64,000 bases of DNA from the NCBI GenBank assembly GCA_017433295.1, contig JAFRHL010000034.1:1-64000 (forward strand), given 5' to 3'. Below, piece by piece: positions 42,278-59,112 of this stretch. The notes beneath the pieces were generated by a model, which worked only from the letters and a program-made list of their open reading frames with translations, did not search any database and had not been told where the DNA came from. The stretch is from Eubacterium sp. Lineage in GTDB: Bacteria; Bacillota; Clostridia; Lachnospirales; Lachnospiraceae. Made by a program: the position numbers and the translations under genes. Position 1 is the stretch's first letter; the number at the start of each line of letters is the position of its first letter.

Positions 42278-42362
42278 GCAGTCTTGGCGGAATTGGCATA
42301 CGCGCTAGACTAAGGATCTAGTCCGGGCTAACTGGGTGTGGGTTCAAGTCCCACAGACTGCA
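42278..42362 (+). tRNA. tRNA-Leu, anticodon AAG
   Basis: Acceptor stem GCAGTCT/AGACTGC, D-arm starting TGGCGGAATTGGCATACGCG, anticodon stem CTAGA/TCTAG with loop CTAAGGA (anticodon AAG at 42312-42314 by loop position), a long class II variable arm, T-arm GTGGG-TTCAAGT-CCCAC, and discriminator A. CCA is not encoded. The tRNA reads CUU and, if A34 is deaminated to inosine, also CUC and CUA. Confidence 0.93.
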
Positions 42363-53531: not shown

Positions 53532-56057
53532 GTGAGAAAAACAGGATTAAGCAGATATATTACAAGACTGACGGCATTTCTCCTCAGCGGTTCCATGATC
53601 ATTTCCAATGTGGTTCCGGTTGCGGCCGCATCGAAGAAGAAGGACAACAAAGATAAAGTGGAAACTGTCTACGTGAATGCCAATGCCGAGGGTGATACAG
53701 ACAAGATCACTGTCAGCGAACAGCTGAAAAGTCATGGGGAAGGTTCCATTGAGGATTACAGTACCCTTAAGAATATTAAGAATGTAAAGGGCGATGAAGA
53801 GTTTACCCGGAATGCGGACTGCAGCATCACCTGGTCCGGCACCGGAGAAGATATTTTCTATCAGGGTGAATCTGACGCAGCCCTTCCGGTTTCCGTAAAG
53901 GTAACCTACTTTCTGGACGGGAAGAAGATATCGCCGGAAAAACTGGCAGGAAAAAGCGGTAAGGTTAAGATCCGTTTTGACTATACCAATAATACCAGCA
54001 ACACGGTAAAGGTTAACAAGAAGGATGTCTCCGTGCAGACTCCCTTTACCATCGTGTCCGCCATGATCCTCCCCTCTGAGAATTTCTCCAATGTCGAAGT
54101 GGAAAACGGCAGAGTTGTCAACGACGGAGACCGGAATATTGTGATCGGCATGGCCATGCCGGGACTCCGCAAGAGCCTGAAGCTTGATGATTACGAGAAG
54201 CTCAGCGATGTTGACATTCCTGACCACGTGGAGGTAACAGCCGACGCCACCGATTTCGAGCTTTCCATGACTGCCACCATGGCCACCACAGGAACCATTA
54301 ATGAGTTTGATCTGGACGGGTTAGACGATCTTGATGATCTGAAGAAGGATATGGATAAGCTGACGGACGCTTCCTCAGAACTGATCGAGGGAAGCGGAAA
54401 GCTTCTTGACGGCCTCAATACCCTGGACAGCTCCATGAAAACCTATACCAAAGGGGTCTCCAAGGCTGATGAAGGAGCCGGCCAGCTGCGTGACGGCCTG
54501 AAGAAGGTAGCCGGCAAGAAGGCGGAGTTCGAAAAGGGAGCGGAGGATCTCACCAAGGGTCTCTCCACCCTGAAAAACGGTACAAAAACCTTAAAGAAGG
54601 GCGTAAATGATTACACCAGCGGCGCTTCCACCCTGGAGAAGGGAATTGAGAATGCGGCCTCCGGGTCATCCGCACTGAAGAGTGGAGCAGGCTCTTTATC
54701 AAAGGGGCTGAAGGATTACACGGATGGAGCTGAGCAGATCCAGCAGGGGGTACATAAGATTAATTCGGAGGTATCCTCCATTAAGATTCCCCAGGACGCC
54801 AGTGAGGCAGCCAAAAAGCTGGCGGCAGATGCCAAACAGCTTAAGGCAAAGGAAGCTGAGATCAATGCCATGATGAAAAAGCTTTCTACGCTGGAGAAGG
54901 ATCTTAATGATTACAAAACAGATGTTCAGTCCTGGATGGGTAAAGTGGTGGAAAAGGCCAATGCAACTGACGAAAAGGCTAAAACTGAGACTAAAAGTAA
55001 GCTTCAGGATATGGCTTCCAGCGCAAATAGTAAAGCTCTGGAGAAGGTGAATGATAAGGCAGAAAAAGGTCGTGACGCATCAAAGAAAAGCCATGATAAT
55101 GCTGCCTCAGCGGCTGCCTCAGCAGTTAATGAAGCAAAAAGTCAGATCGATGGGATGAATCTTACAGATGAACAGAAAAGTGCAATAAAAAACAAATTGG
55201 ACAGCATAAGTAATAGTGTAAGTAATGCCAATGTTGCTTCTGTGGAAAATGAGACCAGTGTTGACCTTGGCCTCAGTACCGAAGTATCAGATATGAATAT
55301 TTCTGGTGAACTGAAATCTGAGCTTGGGAAATTCCCCACGATGGAGCTGGATGTTAAGGACGCAGACACCGGTCAGATCATTGCTATCATTGAGGATATG
55401 AAGAGCCAGGCCAAGGTCCTGGAAAAATACGGTTCTACAGTTGAAGGATTGAAGGAAAAAATCCCTGAATTGAGAGAGGGACTGAATAAGATTGATAAAG
55501 GTGCTTCGCGGCTTGCTGAAAACAGCGACAAACTCATCAAGGGTATGAAACAATTGTCTTCAGGTATTGACTCTCTTAACAGCGGTCTGAATGCCCTGGA
55601 AGACGGTGCAAAGAAGCTTACAGCCAATAACAATAGCCTGACCGGAGGAACTTCCTCGCTGGATGATGGCGCAGGTAAACTTCTTTCCGGCAGCAAGAAG
55701 CTGGAGCTGGCTGTAAAGAAGGTCACCAAAGCAGCAGATCTTCTGGCAACCGGATCTGTTCAGCTGAAGAACGGAACCGGTAAGCTTGATTCCGCAGGCG
55801 ACCAGATCAACAGCGGCGTGGGCAAGCTGGTCGGCGGTATGCAGACCCTTAATGACGGATTTGTCAAATTCGATGAAGAGGGTATCAAGAAGCTGGCTGA
55901 CCTGGCCGGAGATGACCTTGATTCCATGACCACCCAGCTGAAAGCCATCAAGGAAGCGGATAAGAGTTACCAGTCCTATGGTGGAATCAAAGAGGGATCA
56001 AAGGGTAGTGTGAAGTTCATTATCGAGACGGCTGCCATTGAGAAGGATGATGAGTAG
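53532..56057 (+). CDS. Secreted X-X-X-Leu-X-X-Gly heptad-repeat protein
   Basis: 841 residues. The signal peptide covers about residues 1-33. A beta-rich N-terminal part (ALPVSVKVTYFLDGKKISPEKLAGKSGKVKIRFDYTNNT) is followed by long Leu-x-x-Gly heptads (GLKKVAGKKAEFEKGAEDLTKGLSTLKNGTKTLKKGVNDY..., about 280-400) and again from 600 to 770. Between them is an Ala/Lys-rich coiled coil. This pattern is seen in YhgE/Pip-like proteins encoded beside MMPL transporters. Unlike those, no C-terminal membrane domain is present, so it should be outside the membrane as a partner of the transporter. The start is GTG with AGGAAGGGG upstream. Confidence 0.8.
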   Translation: MRKTGLSRYITRLTAFLLSGSMIISNVVPVAAASKKKDNKDKVETVYVNANAEGDTDKITVSEQLKSHGEGSIEDYSTLKNIKNVKGDEEFTRNADCSITWSGTGEDIFYQGESDAALPVSVKVTYFLDGKKISPEKLAGKSGKVKIRFDYTNNTSNTVKVNKKDVSVQTPFTIVSAMILPSENFSNVEVENGRVVNDGDRNIVIGMAMPGLRKSLKLDDYEKLSDVDIPDHVEVTADATDFELSMTATMATTGTINEFDLDGLDDLDDLKKDMDKLTDASSELIEGSGKLLDGLNTLDSSMKTYTKGVSKADEGAGQLRDGLKKVAGKKAEFEKGAEDLTKGLSTLKNGTKTLKKGVNDYTSGASTLEKGIENAASGSSALKSGAGSLSKGLKDYTDGAEQIQQGVHKINSEVSSIKIPQDASEAAKKLAADAKQLKAKEAEINAMMKKLSTLEKDLNDYKTDVQSWMGKVVEKANATDEKAKTETKSKLQDMASSANSKALEKVNDKAEKGRDASKKSHDNAASAAASAVNEAKSQIDGMNLTDEQKSAIKNKLDSISNSVSNANVASVENETSVDLGLSTEVSDMNISGELKSELGKFPTMELDVKDADTGQIIAIIEDMKSQAKVLEKYGSTVEGLKEKIPELREGLNKIDKGASRLAENSDKLIKGMKQLSSGIDSLNSGLNALEDGAKKLTANNNSLTGGTSSLDDGAGKLLSGSKKLELAVKKVTKAADLLATGSVQLKNGTGKLDSAGDQINSGVGKLVGGMQTLNDGFVKFDEEGIKKLADLAGDDLDSMTTQLKAIKEADKSYQSYGGIKEGSKGSVKFIIETAAIEKDDE

Positions 56058-56101: not shown

Positions 56102-56244
56102 ACAGACGCCGTAAGGGGTGTATAGTTCTCCCCGGGTTCCCTTGCTCCTCGGAAAATCAATCGAAATCGCTTCAGCGGTTCCTGCATTTTGATTTCCTGC
56201 GGTGCAAAGTCACCCGGGGAGAAACTGTACACCCCTTCCGGCTG
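56102..56244 (+). repeat. Inverted-repeat element, copy A
   Basis: Left arm 56108-56137 and right arm 56212-56242 are inverted complements with few mismatches (arm text begins GCCGTAAGGGGTGTA). Between them lies the shared core: GTTCC..TT.CTCCTCGGAAA at its left end and TGATTTCCTGCGGTGCAAAG at its right end, with a 34-base variable middle. ACAGACGCC precedes the left arm. It lies directly after the heptad-repeat gene, next to element B. No open frame is shared with the other copies. Confidence 0.8.
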
Positions 56245-56246
56245 CC

Positions 56247-56407
56247 AGTATAACGGTTCTTAAATAACTGGACCGAATGCTTGCTTGCTCATCCCGATAG
56301 CACACACCTGAAAGCCTCATCGTAGCCCGCTACGACTTCGTTTTCAGGTGCGCACTCTCGGGCAAGCATTCGGCGCATTAGTCCAGTTATTTTGCGAACG
56401 TTATACT
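56247..56407. repeat. 161-bp near-perfect palindrome (element B)
   Basis: The whole stretch is one giant inverted repeat centred at 56327. Outer arms start AGTATAACG and end CGTTATACT. An inner ACCTGAAA pairs with TTTCAGGT, and the tip is TCGTAG-CCCG-CTACGA (56320-56335). Sequence is unrelated to elements A, C and D. It abuts element A. It could fold as a very long hairpin in RNA or single-stranded DNA. Confidence 0.8.
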
Positions 56408-56442
56408 AGTTGTCTGTAGAAGTACGGGAGAGATACCCTTCT

Positions 56443-57302
56443 TTAAGATGTGAGAGTATTTTGTAACTTCAGCAGTTCTTTTTCTAACCTTTTTGCTTTT
56501 TCTTCAGCCTGTTTAGCCCTGATCTCAGCCTGCTGAAGATCAGCTTTGGCTCTGGCCTTGGCCTGCTCAAGATCAACTTTGGTTTGCTCAAGATCAACTT
56601 TGGTTTGCTCAAGTTCAGCTTTTGTTCTGGCAAGTTCTTCATTAGCCCCTCTCCAGTCAAAGGTCTGAAAATTTTCAAAGAGCACACCCATGTCCTTTCC
56701 CTCCTTAACATTTTTAAGTATCTATACTCCCTTAAAGGTACGATTTTATAGGTGAAATCAGGAATACACTCCATAATCAGATGCGCGTGAGATATTCGAT
56801 CTGAAAGGTTTGGCCCTGCAGTCCATTTTTCTGCTCCTTCATAATAAACAATAGGAATGATAAGGGGATAACGGAAGCTCTTAGCTTTGTTGGAGTCTCT
56901 TTTTTGTTCATTACATTTTCTTGCGTAATCTTTCCAGATGACGGACATATAATGGAGAAGCTGCATTGCCACATCGTAATCGACCTGGGATTTGTGCTCG
57001 ATCAGGGAGATCACGTAAACTTCCTCCTGTCTGTCACCGATCCTGACCTGTATCTTTTTTATTGTATCCCCTTCTACCTCAATCCCCAGAAGAAATCGGA
57101 ATCTGCTGGTCTGGTCTTCGATGTCCTCCGGTTTGACATCTGAAAAAAAGCTGATACCGGAATAGTCTTTCAGGAACTGGCTGGTCAGGACATTGTTTTT
57201 AAATATGTCCTTGCTGTTTACATCCCTGATATGTGATAATTCCCCGGGACTTTCTGTAGTTTTATTGTTGTTAGTATATTTTACTATGTATTTCAATATC
57301 AA
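56443..57302 (-). pseudogene. Rpn/YhgA-family PD-(D/E)XK nuclease (transposase_31), frameshifted
   Basis: The N-terminal frame (57302 to about 56710) has SLIEHKSQVDYDVAMQLLHYMSVIWKDYA, the E-x-K nuclease core of the Rpn/YhgA family, and YPLIIPIVYYEGAEKW, also typical. It then runs into a wrong frame. The minus-strand frame 56691-56443, reading MGVLFENFQTFDWRG then repeated LEQTKVD heptads, is the natural continuation. The two join if one base is added in the T5 run at 56711-56715 (A5 on the coding strand), restoring KNVKEGKDMG. The coiled-coil tail is coded by 21-bp repeats. The N-terminus is TTG-started and may be shortened. Either a decayed gene or one needing slippage. Confidence 0.75.
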
Positions 57303-57336
57303 ATGTTGAGTTGTGGGGGTGTTTTTGTTTGACCGG

Positions 57337-57472
57337 ACAGACGCAGAGAAGGAGGGGGACTATGTCTGCAAGTTCCGTTCCTCCTCGGAAATTGAAGTCA
57401 TTTGGCGCCTTTTGTCCATGATTTCCTGCGGTGCAAAGTCACTTGCAGACATGGTCCATCTCCTTCTCTGTT
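57337..57472 (+). repeat. Inverted-repeat element, copy C
   Basis: Arms 57344-57373 and 57441-57470 are near-perfect inverted complements (arm text starts CAGAGAAGGAGG). The core has the same left block (TTCCGTTCCTCCTCGGAAA) and right block (TGATTTCCTGCGGTGCAAAG) as copies A and D, with a 27-base middle. ACAGAC precedes the left arm. GGAAAT and ATTTCC at the inner ends of the core can pair, leaving two conserved internal-loop strands. Confidence 0.85.
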
Positions 57473-57536
57473 GTTTATTGGCCGGTAAAGGTAAATTCAT
57501 CTGATTTTTATCATTTATATAGGCAAGGAACCAGAT

Positions 57537-57671
57537 ATGATATGTGCGGTTTGTAAAAATCCAGATGAAAGTATATATATTAACAAATTAACTGATTTTT
57601 TCTATCAGAATATACCCATGGAACTGGTCTCAGGCAGAAAAAAATATACTTTCTGTTCTTATCTGCCCTGA
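57537..57671 (+). CDS. Possible 44-residue Cys-containing small protein
   Basis: ATG at 57537 with AAGG eight to nine bases upstream opens a frame to TGA at 57669-57671. It begins MICAVCKNPDESIY with a C-x-x-C pair and ends YTFCSYLP. It lies between elements C and D. The 3' end overlaps a hairpin (CTCAGGCAGA 57629-57638 with TCTGCCCTGAG 57662-57672). It may be the start of a truncated zinc-ribbon protein or chance. No family is recognised. Confidence 0.25.
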   Translation: MICAVCKNPDESIYINKLTDFFYQNIPMELVSGRKKYTFCSYLP

Positions 57672-57736
57672 GCTAATGATAGGACGAATTCAGAGAAAGA
57701 TATGACCGGGGTTTATGCTTTTTTGTCCAGCACTCA

Positions 57737-57939
57737 GCCGGAAGGGTGCCTACTCCTACATCCGGTATATAGTAGTGGGGGAAGGGTATATGTCTGAAAG
57801 TGACTTTGCACCGCAGGAAATCACAGACAAAAACTGCCAAATAACTCCAATTTCCGAGGAGGAACGGAACTTTCAGACATATACCCTTCCCCCGCAACGT
57901 CAAACCTGGGGAGATTTATAGGTCCCTTCCGGCGTCTGT
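57737..57939 (-). repeat. Inverted-repeat element, copy D (opposite orientation)
   Basis: Inner arms 57777-57801 and 57869-57893 are perfect 25-bp inverted complements (arm text starts GGGGGAAGGGTATATG). The enclosed core, read on the minus strand, matches copy C except for seven positions in the 27-base middle. A second outer pair, GCCGGAAGGG (57737-57746) with CCCTTCCGGC (57924-57933), encloses about 30 unpaired bases on each side. GTCTGT follows, the complement of the ACAGAC seen at copies A and C. Confidence 0.85.
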
Positions 57940-57974
57940 ACGTAGAATAATAAAACACCCCTGCAACTCAACAT

Positions 57975-58892
57975 TTACCTCATAATAATATACGCCGTAT
58001 ACCCCACATACAAAGCTGCCAGAACTGCACCCTCCAGCCTGGTGACTTTATGCCCGGTTCTGCAGAAGATAAAGATCAGGATGTTGATGATGATCAGCAG
58101 TACCATATCCACCAGCAGATTCATGTCAACGGTGATGGGAGCCAGTGTGGATGCGATACCTACAATAAAGAAGAAGTTAAAGATACAGCTTCCGATGGCG
58201 TTGCCCAGGGCGATGCCGGATTCTCCCTTGCGGGCGGCCATAACGGAGGTGACCAGCTCGGGGAGGGAGGTTCCGATGGCGACTATGGTAAGTCCCACCA
58301 GGGTATCGCTCATGCCGAAGTGCTTGGCTATGATGGTGGCATTATTGACAACAAGCTGTCCGCCCAGGACGATAGCGGCAAGTCCCAGTACAACATAGAC
58401 AAGGCTTAAGGGGATGGGGAGTATCTTTTCCTCCGTTTCCTCAGTTCTATTCTTGAGAGCTCCCTTTACCAGAATGATCATGTAAACAAGGATGGCGGCC
58501 AGCAGGAAAATGCCTTCCGGCCGGCTGATGTGCCCGTCCAGCATCATAAGAAAAAGTACAATGGTGCTTAAAATACTAACCGGCAGGTCTCTGGTCAGTA
58601 TGCCTTTTTGCATGGGGATGTCTGCGACCAGGGCGGCGCAGCCGATAACGGCCAGAAGATTGAAGATATTAGATCCGATGACATTTCCCAGGGAAATGTC
58701 GCTGCTGCCCCGAAGACCGGCGGTGATGCTGACTGCGGCTTCCGGCGCGCTGGTTCCCATAGAGACCAGGGTCAGTCCGATGACGATGGAAGGAACCTTC
58801 AGAGCCCTTGCGATGGAAGAGGAGCCCTCCACAAAGAAATCTGCCCCCTTGATCAATAATACAAAACCTGCAATTAATAAAATGTACTCCAT
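57975..58892 (-). CDS. Calcium/sodium antiporter (CaCA family, YrbG-like)
   Basis: 305 residues from the ATG at 58892 (AGGAGG upstream); a longer frame starts 28 codons earlier within the promoter. Two alpha repeats carry the ion-site motifs GLTLVSMGTSAPEAAVSITAGLRG...GNVIGSNIFNLL (about 38-80) and GLTIVAIGTSLPELVTSVMAARKGESGIALGNAIGSCIFNFFFIVG (about 200-245). About ten membrane helices. It exchanges Na+ or H+ for Ca2+ across the membrane. It is a single-gene unit with its own promoter. Confidence 0.93.
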   Translation of the reverse strand: MEYILLIAGFVLLIKGADFFVEGSSSIARALKVPSIVIGLTLVSMGTSAPEAAVSITAGLRGSSDISLGNVIGSNIFNLLAVIGCAALVADIPMQKGILTRDLPVSILSTIVLFLMMLDGHISRPEGIFLLAAILVYMIILVKGALKNRTEETEEKILPIPLSLVYVVLGLAAIVLGGQLVVNNATIIAKHFGMSDTLVGLTIVAIGTSLPELVTSVMAARKGESGIALGNAIGSCIFNFFFIVGIASTLAPITVDMNLLVDMVLLIIINILIFIFCRTGHKVTRLEGAVLAALYVGYTAYIIMR

Positions 58893-58926
58893 AGTATCCT
58901 CCTGACAGATCGGGATAATAATTAAT

Positions 58927-58972
58927 GAGGCTTTTACCGCACGATTATAGTACGATAAAAGCCTCGCTGCAA
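58927..58972 (-). promoter_or_regulatory. Antiporter promoter within a 10-bp inverted repeat
   Basis: On the minus strand TTGCAG (58972-58967), 17-base spacer, TATAAT (58949-58944). GAGGCTTTTA (58927-58936) and TAAAAGCCTC (58956-58965) form a perfect inverted repeat that encloses the -10 box. Confidence 0.65.
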
Positions 58973-59112
58973 ACAACTTATAAAAGTGGGTAAATACAAG
59001 ACCTACTATATCTTATGCAGAATAATCTTGTCAAGAACTCTCCTGTAAAATGAATGTAAAAATGTGTCATTTAAGGGGCCGTAAATAGCAGCCATCTTAA
59101 TTGGGGTAATAT

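Follow-up and report, generated by a model that had tools for sequence, protein, structure and literature searches.

Hairpins and genes at the locus

The 64,000-nucleotide stretch of Eubacterium DNA analysed here (the window) carries three related long hairpins, A, C and D, set among ORFs and the pieces of a broken gene. Copy A (56102..56244, plus strand) is free-standing and sits behind an ORF at 53532-56057 (+). It has a GACG foot at 56105-56108, and its arms, which we call type 1, run from about 56108 to 56136 and from about 56213 to 56242, with a 5' core block at 56136-56155 and a 3' core block at 56193-56213. Copy C (57337..57472, plus strand) has its GACG foot at 57340-57343, arms of type 2 at about 57344-57372 and about 57442-57470, and core blocks at 57372-57391 and 57422-57442. 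Copy D lies on the minus strand; its inner hairpin (about 57772-57898), again with type 2 arms, contains core blocks at 57800-57820 and 57851-57870. A sequence-only reading of the window had described all three copies and their shared core blocks, and our searches found them at the same places. The span that it had assigned to D, 57737..57939, does hold the core hairpin; it also takes in, on the outside, what is left of a foot and arm of type 1 (57903-57939 and about 57737-57754), and so mixes the two arm types.

The pairing of arms within each copy, also proposed in that reading, is borne out by folding. As RNA, copy A reaches -78.2 kcal/mol (z -9.35), copy C -66.8 kcal/mol (z -6.63) and copy D, taken as 57765-57903 on the minus strand, -62.1 kcal/mol (z -9.56), and for none of the three did any of 200 shuffles fold as well. 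The accompanying claim of three arm types holds in part: arms do vary between copies, but the window contains two types rather than three. C and D match as inverted repeats of each other over 97 nt at 89% identity and are therefore not independent; since they have a common arm type, the window trio provides less independent covariation than had been assumed. The two copies form the halves of a larger MITE-like unit, at whose ends lies an inverted repeat of 25 nt and 92% identity; both its left (57301..57325, plus) and its right member (57952..57976, minus) have related repeats elsewhere in the genome. The right repeat overlaps the stop codon of an Na/Ca exchanger ORF (57975-58976, minus).

Copy A is abutted by a further hairpin, B (56247..56407, plus), which is a member of a separate dispersed family and has an inner core of another kind. 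This second family also has variable arms, with another copy in the host genome (99%), one full-length relative in genome G011 of the genus (75%) and partial ones in G008 and G011. Then come pieces, in two frames, of a YhgA-like gene (56443..57302, minus) matching PF04754 (YhgA-like Transposase_31). The idea of a link between the hairpins and this Rpn/YhgA gene did not hold up, as no relative of it was found near the other copies fetched: with the window protein as query against loci L009-L032 and L081-L111, the next best E was only 0.31. Places matching PF12784 in the host genome fall on contigs without a listed hairpin copy, in a search whose list does not include the window's own PF04754 gene. 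A tRNA at 42278-42362 is the sole Rfam match at gathering score in the window.

Family size, variable arms and the core

In the host genome (G000), a 24-base core allowed up to 3 mismatches occurs at 33 places and a 21-base core allowed up to 2 mismatches at 34, against 0 for the backwards control in both cases. A covariance model adds 6 further sense places, for a total of about 40 copies, and also finds the element elsewhere in the genus. The expected large family with many different yet self-complementary arms is supported. At E ≤0.05 the model has matches in 8 of the 24 genomes of the genus that served as our comparison set. We accept the element in six genomes, G000, G016 (9 copies, one partial), G018 (6), G017 (5), G006 (5) and G015 (1); relatives of the hairpin are accordingly present in five other species of the genus besides the host. 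The two matches in G011 are weak or truncated remnants. The match in G020, a second match in G015 (L109) and L111 were rejected as members, since they look like plain palindromes without the core.

Outside this set, the exact core pattern occurs in 7 stretches of a GTDB collection from which the window's own or very near genomes may be missing. Six of these come from two MAGs of Lachnospiraceae, which correspond in sequence to G017 and G018; the seventh, from an Anaerolineae, has no arms and is therefore judged a chance occurrence, and a wide distribution was rejected. A family-wide model search of 397 genomes returned only G000 among the matches listed and is weak as a negative, 9 candidates having been scored per genome and 9 of the roughly 40 G000 copies listed. 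Collections of viral contigs, plasmids and phages contain no core match. In Rfam, the hairpins of the window have no match at the gathering score, and a relaxed search gave 12 matches below it (best E 0.00082), which we read as generic hairpins; microRNA precursor families account for 11. The earlier remark that no named element of this design was known thus stands for Rfam at gathering score and for the viral, plasmid and phage collections. Our literature search found no paper that names the element in its title or the start of its abstract; an unnamed entry is possible in the supplements of a survey that reportedly lists candidate structured RNAs by the thousand from human microbiomes (PMC8040213).

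The structure was tested on 34 pairs, set by hand, in 31 sequences (25 from G000 and 6 from G017 and G018). Across these sequences 92.2% of cells are paired, compared with 72.3% in shuffles; 24 of the 34 pairs have changed on both sides (17.1 in shuffles), and cells with both-sided changes number 215 (67.8 in shuffles), values that none of 500 shuffles reached. When partners are slid, pairing falls to at most 54.6% and the covariation score drops from 0.520 to at most 0.164. The arms measure 23-30 bp and the whole unit about 120-145 nt.

The core is almost constant and consists of short helices interrupted by conserved mismatches. We read it on 62 copies from six genomes (37 from G000 and 25 from the others), having removed repeats of the same place (L086, L088, L026 minus and L091 plus) and left out copies with an incomplete core, namely L022 at 21, which the contig start cuts, the truncated L028, the diverged L093, the partial L104, L084 and L110. 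Several core pairs are swapped for other pairs: 27-112 is G-C in 52 copies and C-G in 8, 28-111 is T-A in 47 and C-G in 10, 36-103 is C-G in 39 and T-A in 23, 38-101 is C-G in 55 and G-C in 5, and 39-100 is C-G in 61 and T-A in 1. The mismatches persist, with T.C at 29-110 kept in 60 of the 62 copies, G.A at 32-107 in 61 and T.T at 37-102 in 59. Position 30-109 is C.T in 53 copies, T.G in 8 and C.A in 1, and pair 35-104 is not kept (G-C in 37, C.C in 25). The helix used here derives from comparison rather than from energy folding, which for single copies with C at the variable core base often pairs the core in another way (TTCCG with CGGAA). The conserved non-Watson-Crick positions fit the suggestion, made from the window alone, that the element is recognised through its internal loop. 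The GACG foot (reverse complement CGTC), whose last G is paired, is found in A, C and other G000 copies and in G006 copies, and is absent from the G016 copies.

Placement behind genes and a sister family

Placement was read on the same 62 copies, with genes taken as ORFs of at least 100 codons rather than from annotation; the gene upstream of L083, L096 and L097, where the ORF caller favoured a longer antisense frame, was set by hand as truA. The inverted repeat of the MITE lies near 18 of the 62 copies and is lacking in 44. Among these 44 free-standing copies the upstream gene is known for 41; 38 of these copies share its strand, and in 36 no more than 120 nt separate its stop from the core. 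None of the 35 free-standing copies for which both neighbours are known falls between divergent genes. In convergent gaps 19 of 23 copies are nearer the upstream stop (p=0.0026), and in tandem gaps 9 of 12 are in sense (p=0.15). The GACG foot of free-standing copies faces the gene. The sequence-only reading had expected mostly intergenic copies; the free-standing ones lie directly behind genes. By comparison, just 8 of the 18 MITE-borne copies have the upstream gene on the same strand. Close pairs in G000 have their feet outward in 8 cases out of 8.

Some gene ends are occupied in more than one species. The element lies behind truA in G015, G017 and G018, and the last two also carry it behind a DUF4097 gene; at the end of this DUF4097 gene, about half or more of 19 other genomes carry, as judged by eye, a compact hairpin with a T run. 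Other repeats are seen in similar settings. Inverted repeats of the form GGGGTCAGACCCC or GGGGTCAGA...TCTGACCCC flank or replace the element behind genes at L035, L094 (G018) and L138 (G008). At L010 the element is immediately followed by an inverted repeat, TTAGCACTC...GAGTGCTAA, which resembles a CIRCE heat-shock operator.

Behind truA and the DUF4097 gene, G003 has another long hairpin, with the foot AGACG...CTGTTT. Its core has the words GTGACTTT and TCCGAGG in common with the reverse complement of the window-family core; judged by eye, the two cores are probably homologous, the sister core being inverted relative to its foot when compared with the window family. An exact pattern for this sister family finds 131 copies in G003 and 2 in G004; the remaining 22 genomes have 0, and viral contigs gave none either. 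Where longer pieces of G003 and G004 DNA were compared, identity is about 81-83%, with a lower value in one stretch. A gene ends 32-67 nt from the core on the foot side in 20 of the 26 sister copies read (24 from G003 and 2 from G004). Sister pairs less than 600 nt apart, counted among the 100 places listed of the 131 in G003, have feet outward in 11 of 11 cases. The G003 copies lie at loci L187-L276.

Copying or selection, and a proposed mobility

Covariation usually counts as proof that an RNA fold is under selection, and on these grounds the arms of the window copies had been read as a sign of a folded RNA or a single-stranded-DNA hairpin. If arm pairs were selected as RNA, G.U would be expected to outnumber A.C. 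Arm mismatches are instead close to strand-symmetric: G.T and A.C number 38 and 32 over all positions of the 62 copies, 33 and 26 at positions 6-25, 25 and 23 in the sister family, counted on 78 distinct copies from G003 whose flanks are complete, and 6 and 9 in a first count on 26 sister copies. The sister family also allows changes to be followed in young copies. We sorted pairs of sister copies, which are not independent of one another, by the divergence of the 22 nt outside each arm, bases that may not be neutral. Per 24 pairs, both-sided changes amount to 1.25 (8 non-independent copy pairs, one of which gives 8 of the 10 both-sided changes; 0.29 without that pair), 1.18 and 4.07 at outer divergences of 2.0, 5.4 and 10.6%, against 0.003, 0.023 and 0.089 expected under independence, and one-sided changes stay at 0.25-1.21 across the bins. 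In young copies, both-sided changes are roughly as frequent as changes at single sites. In one comparison (L199 minus with L206 minus) all 44 outer bases are identical, and a single loop base and a single both-sided change set the copies apart. A single event seems to alter both arms, and such concerted change in young sister copies suggests that arms are copied from each other in DNA rather than restored by selection in two steps. Exchange of whole hairpins between copies would look similar, since it would likewise change both arms at once.

The closest copies of the window family differ by 0-1 loop changes and 1-2 both-sided changes, with no one-sided change; because their outer flanks are 15-33% different, the concerted-change test is clean in the sister family only. 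With no G-U excess and with concerted arm change in young sister copies, we rejected covariation as proof of RNA, and the step from covarying arms to a folded RNA is left unsupported. Since the core mismatches persist, we infer that copying does not erase the core, and that selection or recognition operates there. The family could serve as a natural test case for copying versus selection, in that young copies change both arms at once and arm mismatches lack a G-U preference. Template switching is reported to homogenise the arms of inverted repeats and to invert their spacers (PMC8604942).

We give an even chance to the view that the family consists of long, REP-like, non-autonomous mobile hairpins recognised through their core. 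One could envision that a putative enzyme acting in trans recognises the core as a folded DNA strand or cruciform, that the arms need only present it, and that arm complementarity is kept by fold-back synthesis or template switching, one arm being copied from the other. The accumulation of copies behind genes might then reflect tolerance of, or preference for, gene ends, and an effect on mRNA 3' ends would be possible but secondary. The gap between 131 and 2 sister copies in two species of the genus was counted for mobility, and in the window species the hairpin is also carried inside an inverted-repeat MITE. Folded single-stranded DNA or a cruciform is slightly favoured over RNA as the form that is recognised; the inversion of the sister core relative to its foot fits recognition in DNA better than recognition in one transcript. 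More tentatively, this could be a mobile hairpin of a new kind, whose internal loops, nearly invariant in sequence, would be read by a putative folded-DNA-reading enzyme, and whose arms would be rewritten at each fold-back copying and so owe their complementarity to copying and not to selection. A search for Y1 genes in the 24 genomes, several of which are incomplete drafts, found no transposase for the element. RAYT/Y1 (PF01797) was rejected as the mover: it has no match in G015 and G016, both of which bear the element, and no correlation with the element over the 24 genomes, and in G000 the only match is partial, covering 61 positions at the edge of a contig.

Given how strictly free-standing copies follow stop codons, the element may also act as RNA. 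A 3'-UTR element transcribed in sense with the upstream gene could, through its stem and core, stabilise, process or terminate the mRNA, with arms covarying because the RNA fold is selected. Such an element is favoured by the strand of the upstream gene, the closeness of its stop, the avoidance of divergent gaps and the bias within convergent ones, as well as by the orientation of the sister foot toward gene ends and the swaps of core pairs; the occupation of identical gene ends in related species, together with the stop-codon position, is also compatible with it. We nevertheless hold it to be a possibility well short of an even chance, for neither family has a G.U excess, young sister copies change both arms together, the sister core is (by eye) inverted relative to its foot, tandem contexts taken alone give a modest sense bias (9/12, p=0.15), and a simple scan for terminators finds none on the arms of the three window copies. 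That scan gave three sites, one of them in the apical loop of A. It bears equally on whether the elements are long terminators, intrinsic or bidirectional, that serve convergent genes and have spread by recombination, an explanation that we find improbable. Their placement is terminator-like, and at the DUF4097 gene end G017 and G018 have the element where, by eye, many other genomes have the compact hairpin with its T run; yet the T run is weak or absent at the foot of A, C and D, none of which has a GC-rich stem leading directly into a T run, and a terminator has no need for a conserved core deep within its stem.

A plain MITE family, in which a transposase acts on the outer inverted repeats (AAATGTTGA...) and the inner hairpin is a passenger, would account for the 18 copies with the repeat nearby and for C and D of the window, which form one such unit; the outer-repeat pattern, allowed up to 2 mismatches, occurs at 27 places in the genome against 3 for the backwards control. 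Against this, the other 44 of the 62 copies are without the outer repeat, conservation is central rather than terminal, and inspection by eye showed no target duplication, either next to the unit in the window or in the copies examined. As an account of the family as a whole, the plain-MITE reading is unlikely, to the point that we give it very little weight.

The family looks like a mobile relative of known bacterial palindromic repeats, without a name of its own, that settles behind genes. Passages of one study describe REPs and BIMEs of the GTAG and CGTC superfamilies as dispersed palindromes near gene 3' ends, lying between ORFs that converge or run in one direction and frequently paired head to head; one foot bears a short conserved motif, and stems change in complementary fashion between subfamilies (PMC3733652). 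As far as these passages go, the likeness extends to the niche behind genes, the head-to-head pairs and the complementary stem changes, and perhaps to the foot motif. Size sets the family apart: REPs are given there as 20-40 bp, with CGTC stems of 8-9 bp and short loops, whereas the present elements measure at least 130 nt or about 120-145 nt, with arms of 23-30 bp and a conserved inner core. Also, the frequent G.T pairs that the same passages attribute to REP stems are not in excess here. CGTC REPs are reported there without a dedicated transposase, and the question raised in those passages, of how REPs lacking their own transposase are moved, is one on which the present family would bear (PMC3733652). 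With it, REP-like repeats would come to include, in a Lachnospiraceae genus, hairpins that are far longer and are recognised through an inner core.

RAYT-mobilised REPs would share the logic of a hairpin recognised in trans; however, across the 24 genomes the presence of Y1_Tnp genes does not follow that of the element. With regard to the GTAG/CGTC tag, the GACG foot (reverse complement CGTC) is present and its last G pairs, and its polarity relative to the stem seems opposite to that of dRS3. Small bacterial repeats and MITEs, such as RUP, BOX and ERIC, are likewise short, non-coding, dispersed and strongly folding, and some of our copies have outer inverted repeats. But MITEs conserve their ends, and the present elements conserve their centre and vary in their arms; terminal inverted repeats, expected of all copies of a MITE, accompany 18 of the 62. 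Integron attC sites are recognised by structure, as a folded single strand, while their sequence varies, and they lie in fixed orientation behind a gene, two features that recall the present family. Their outer boxes are conserved and their inside varies, which is the reverse of the arrangement found here.

Some copies have a composite make-up. L019, L024 and L027 are hybrids with arms from different subtypes that match in part, as if recombined through the core. At L083, L089, L026, L020 and L023, the 5' foot and arm are partly duplicated in tandem directly before the element, and the duplicated units start at ACGC or ACGN.
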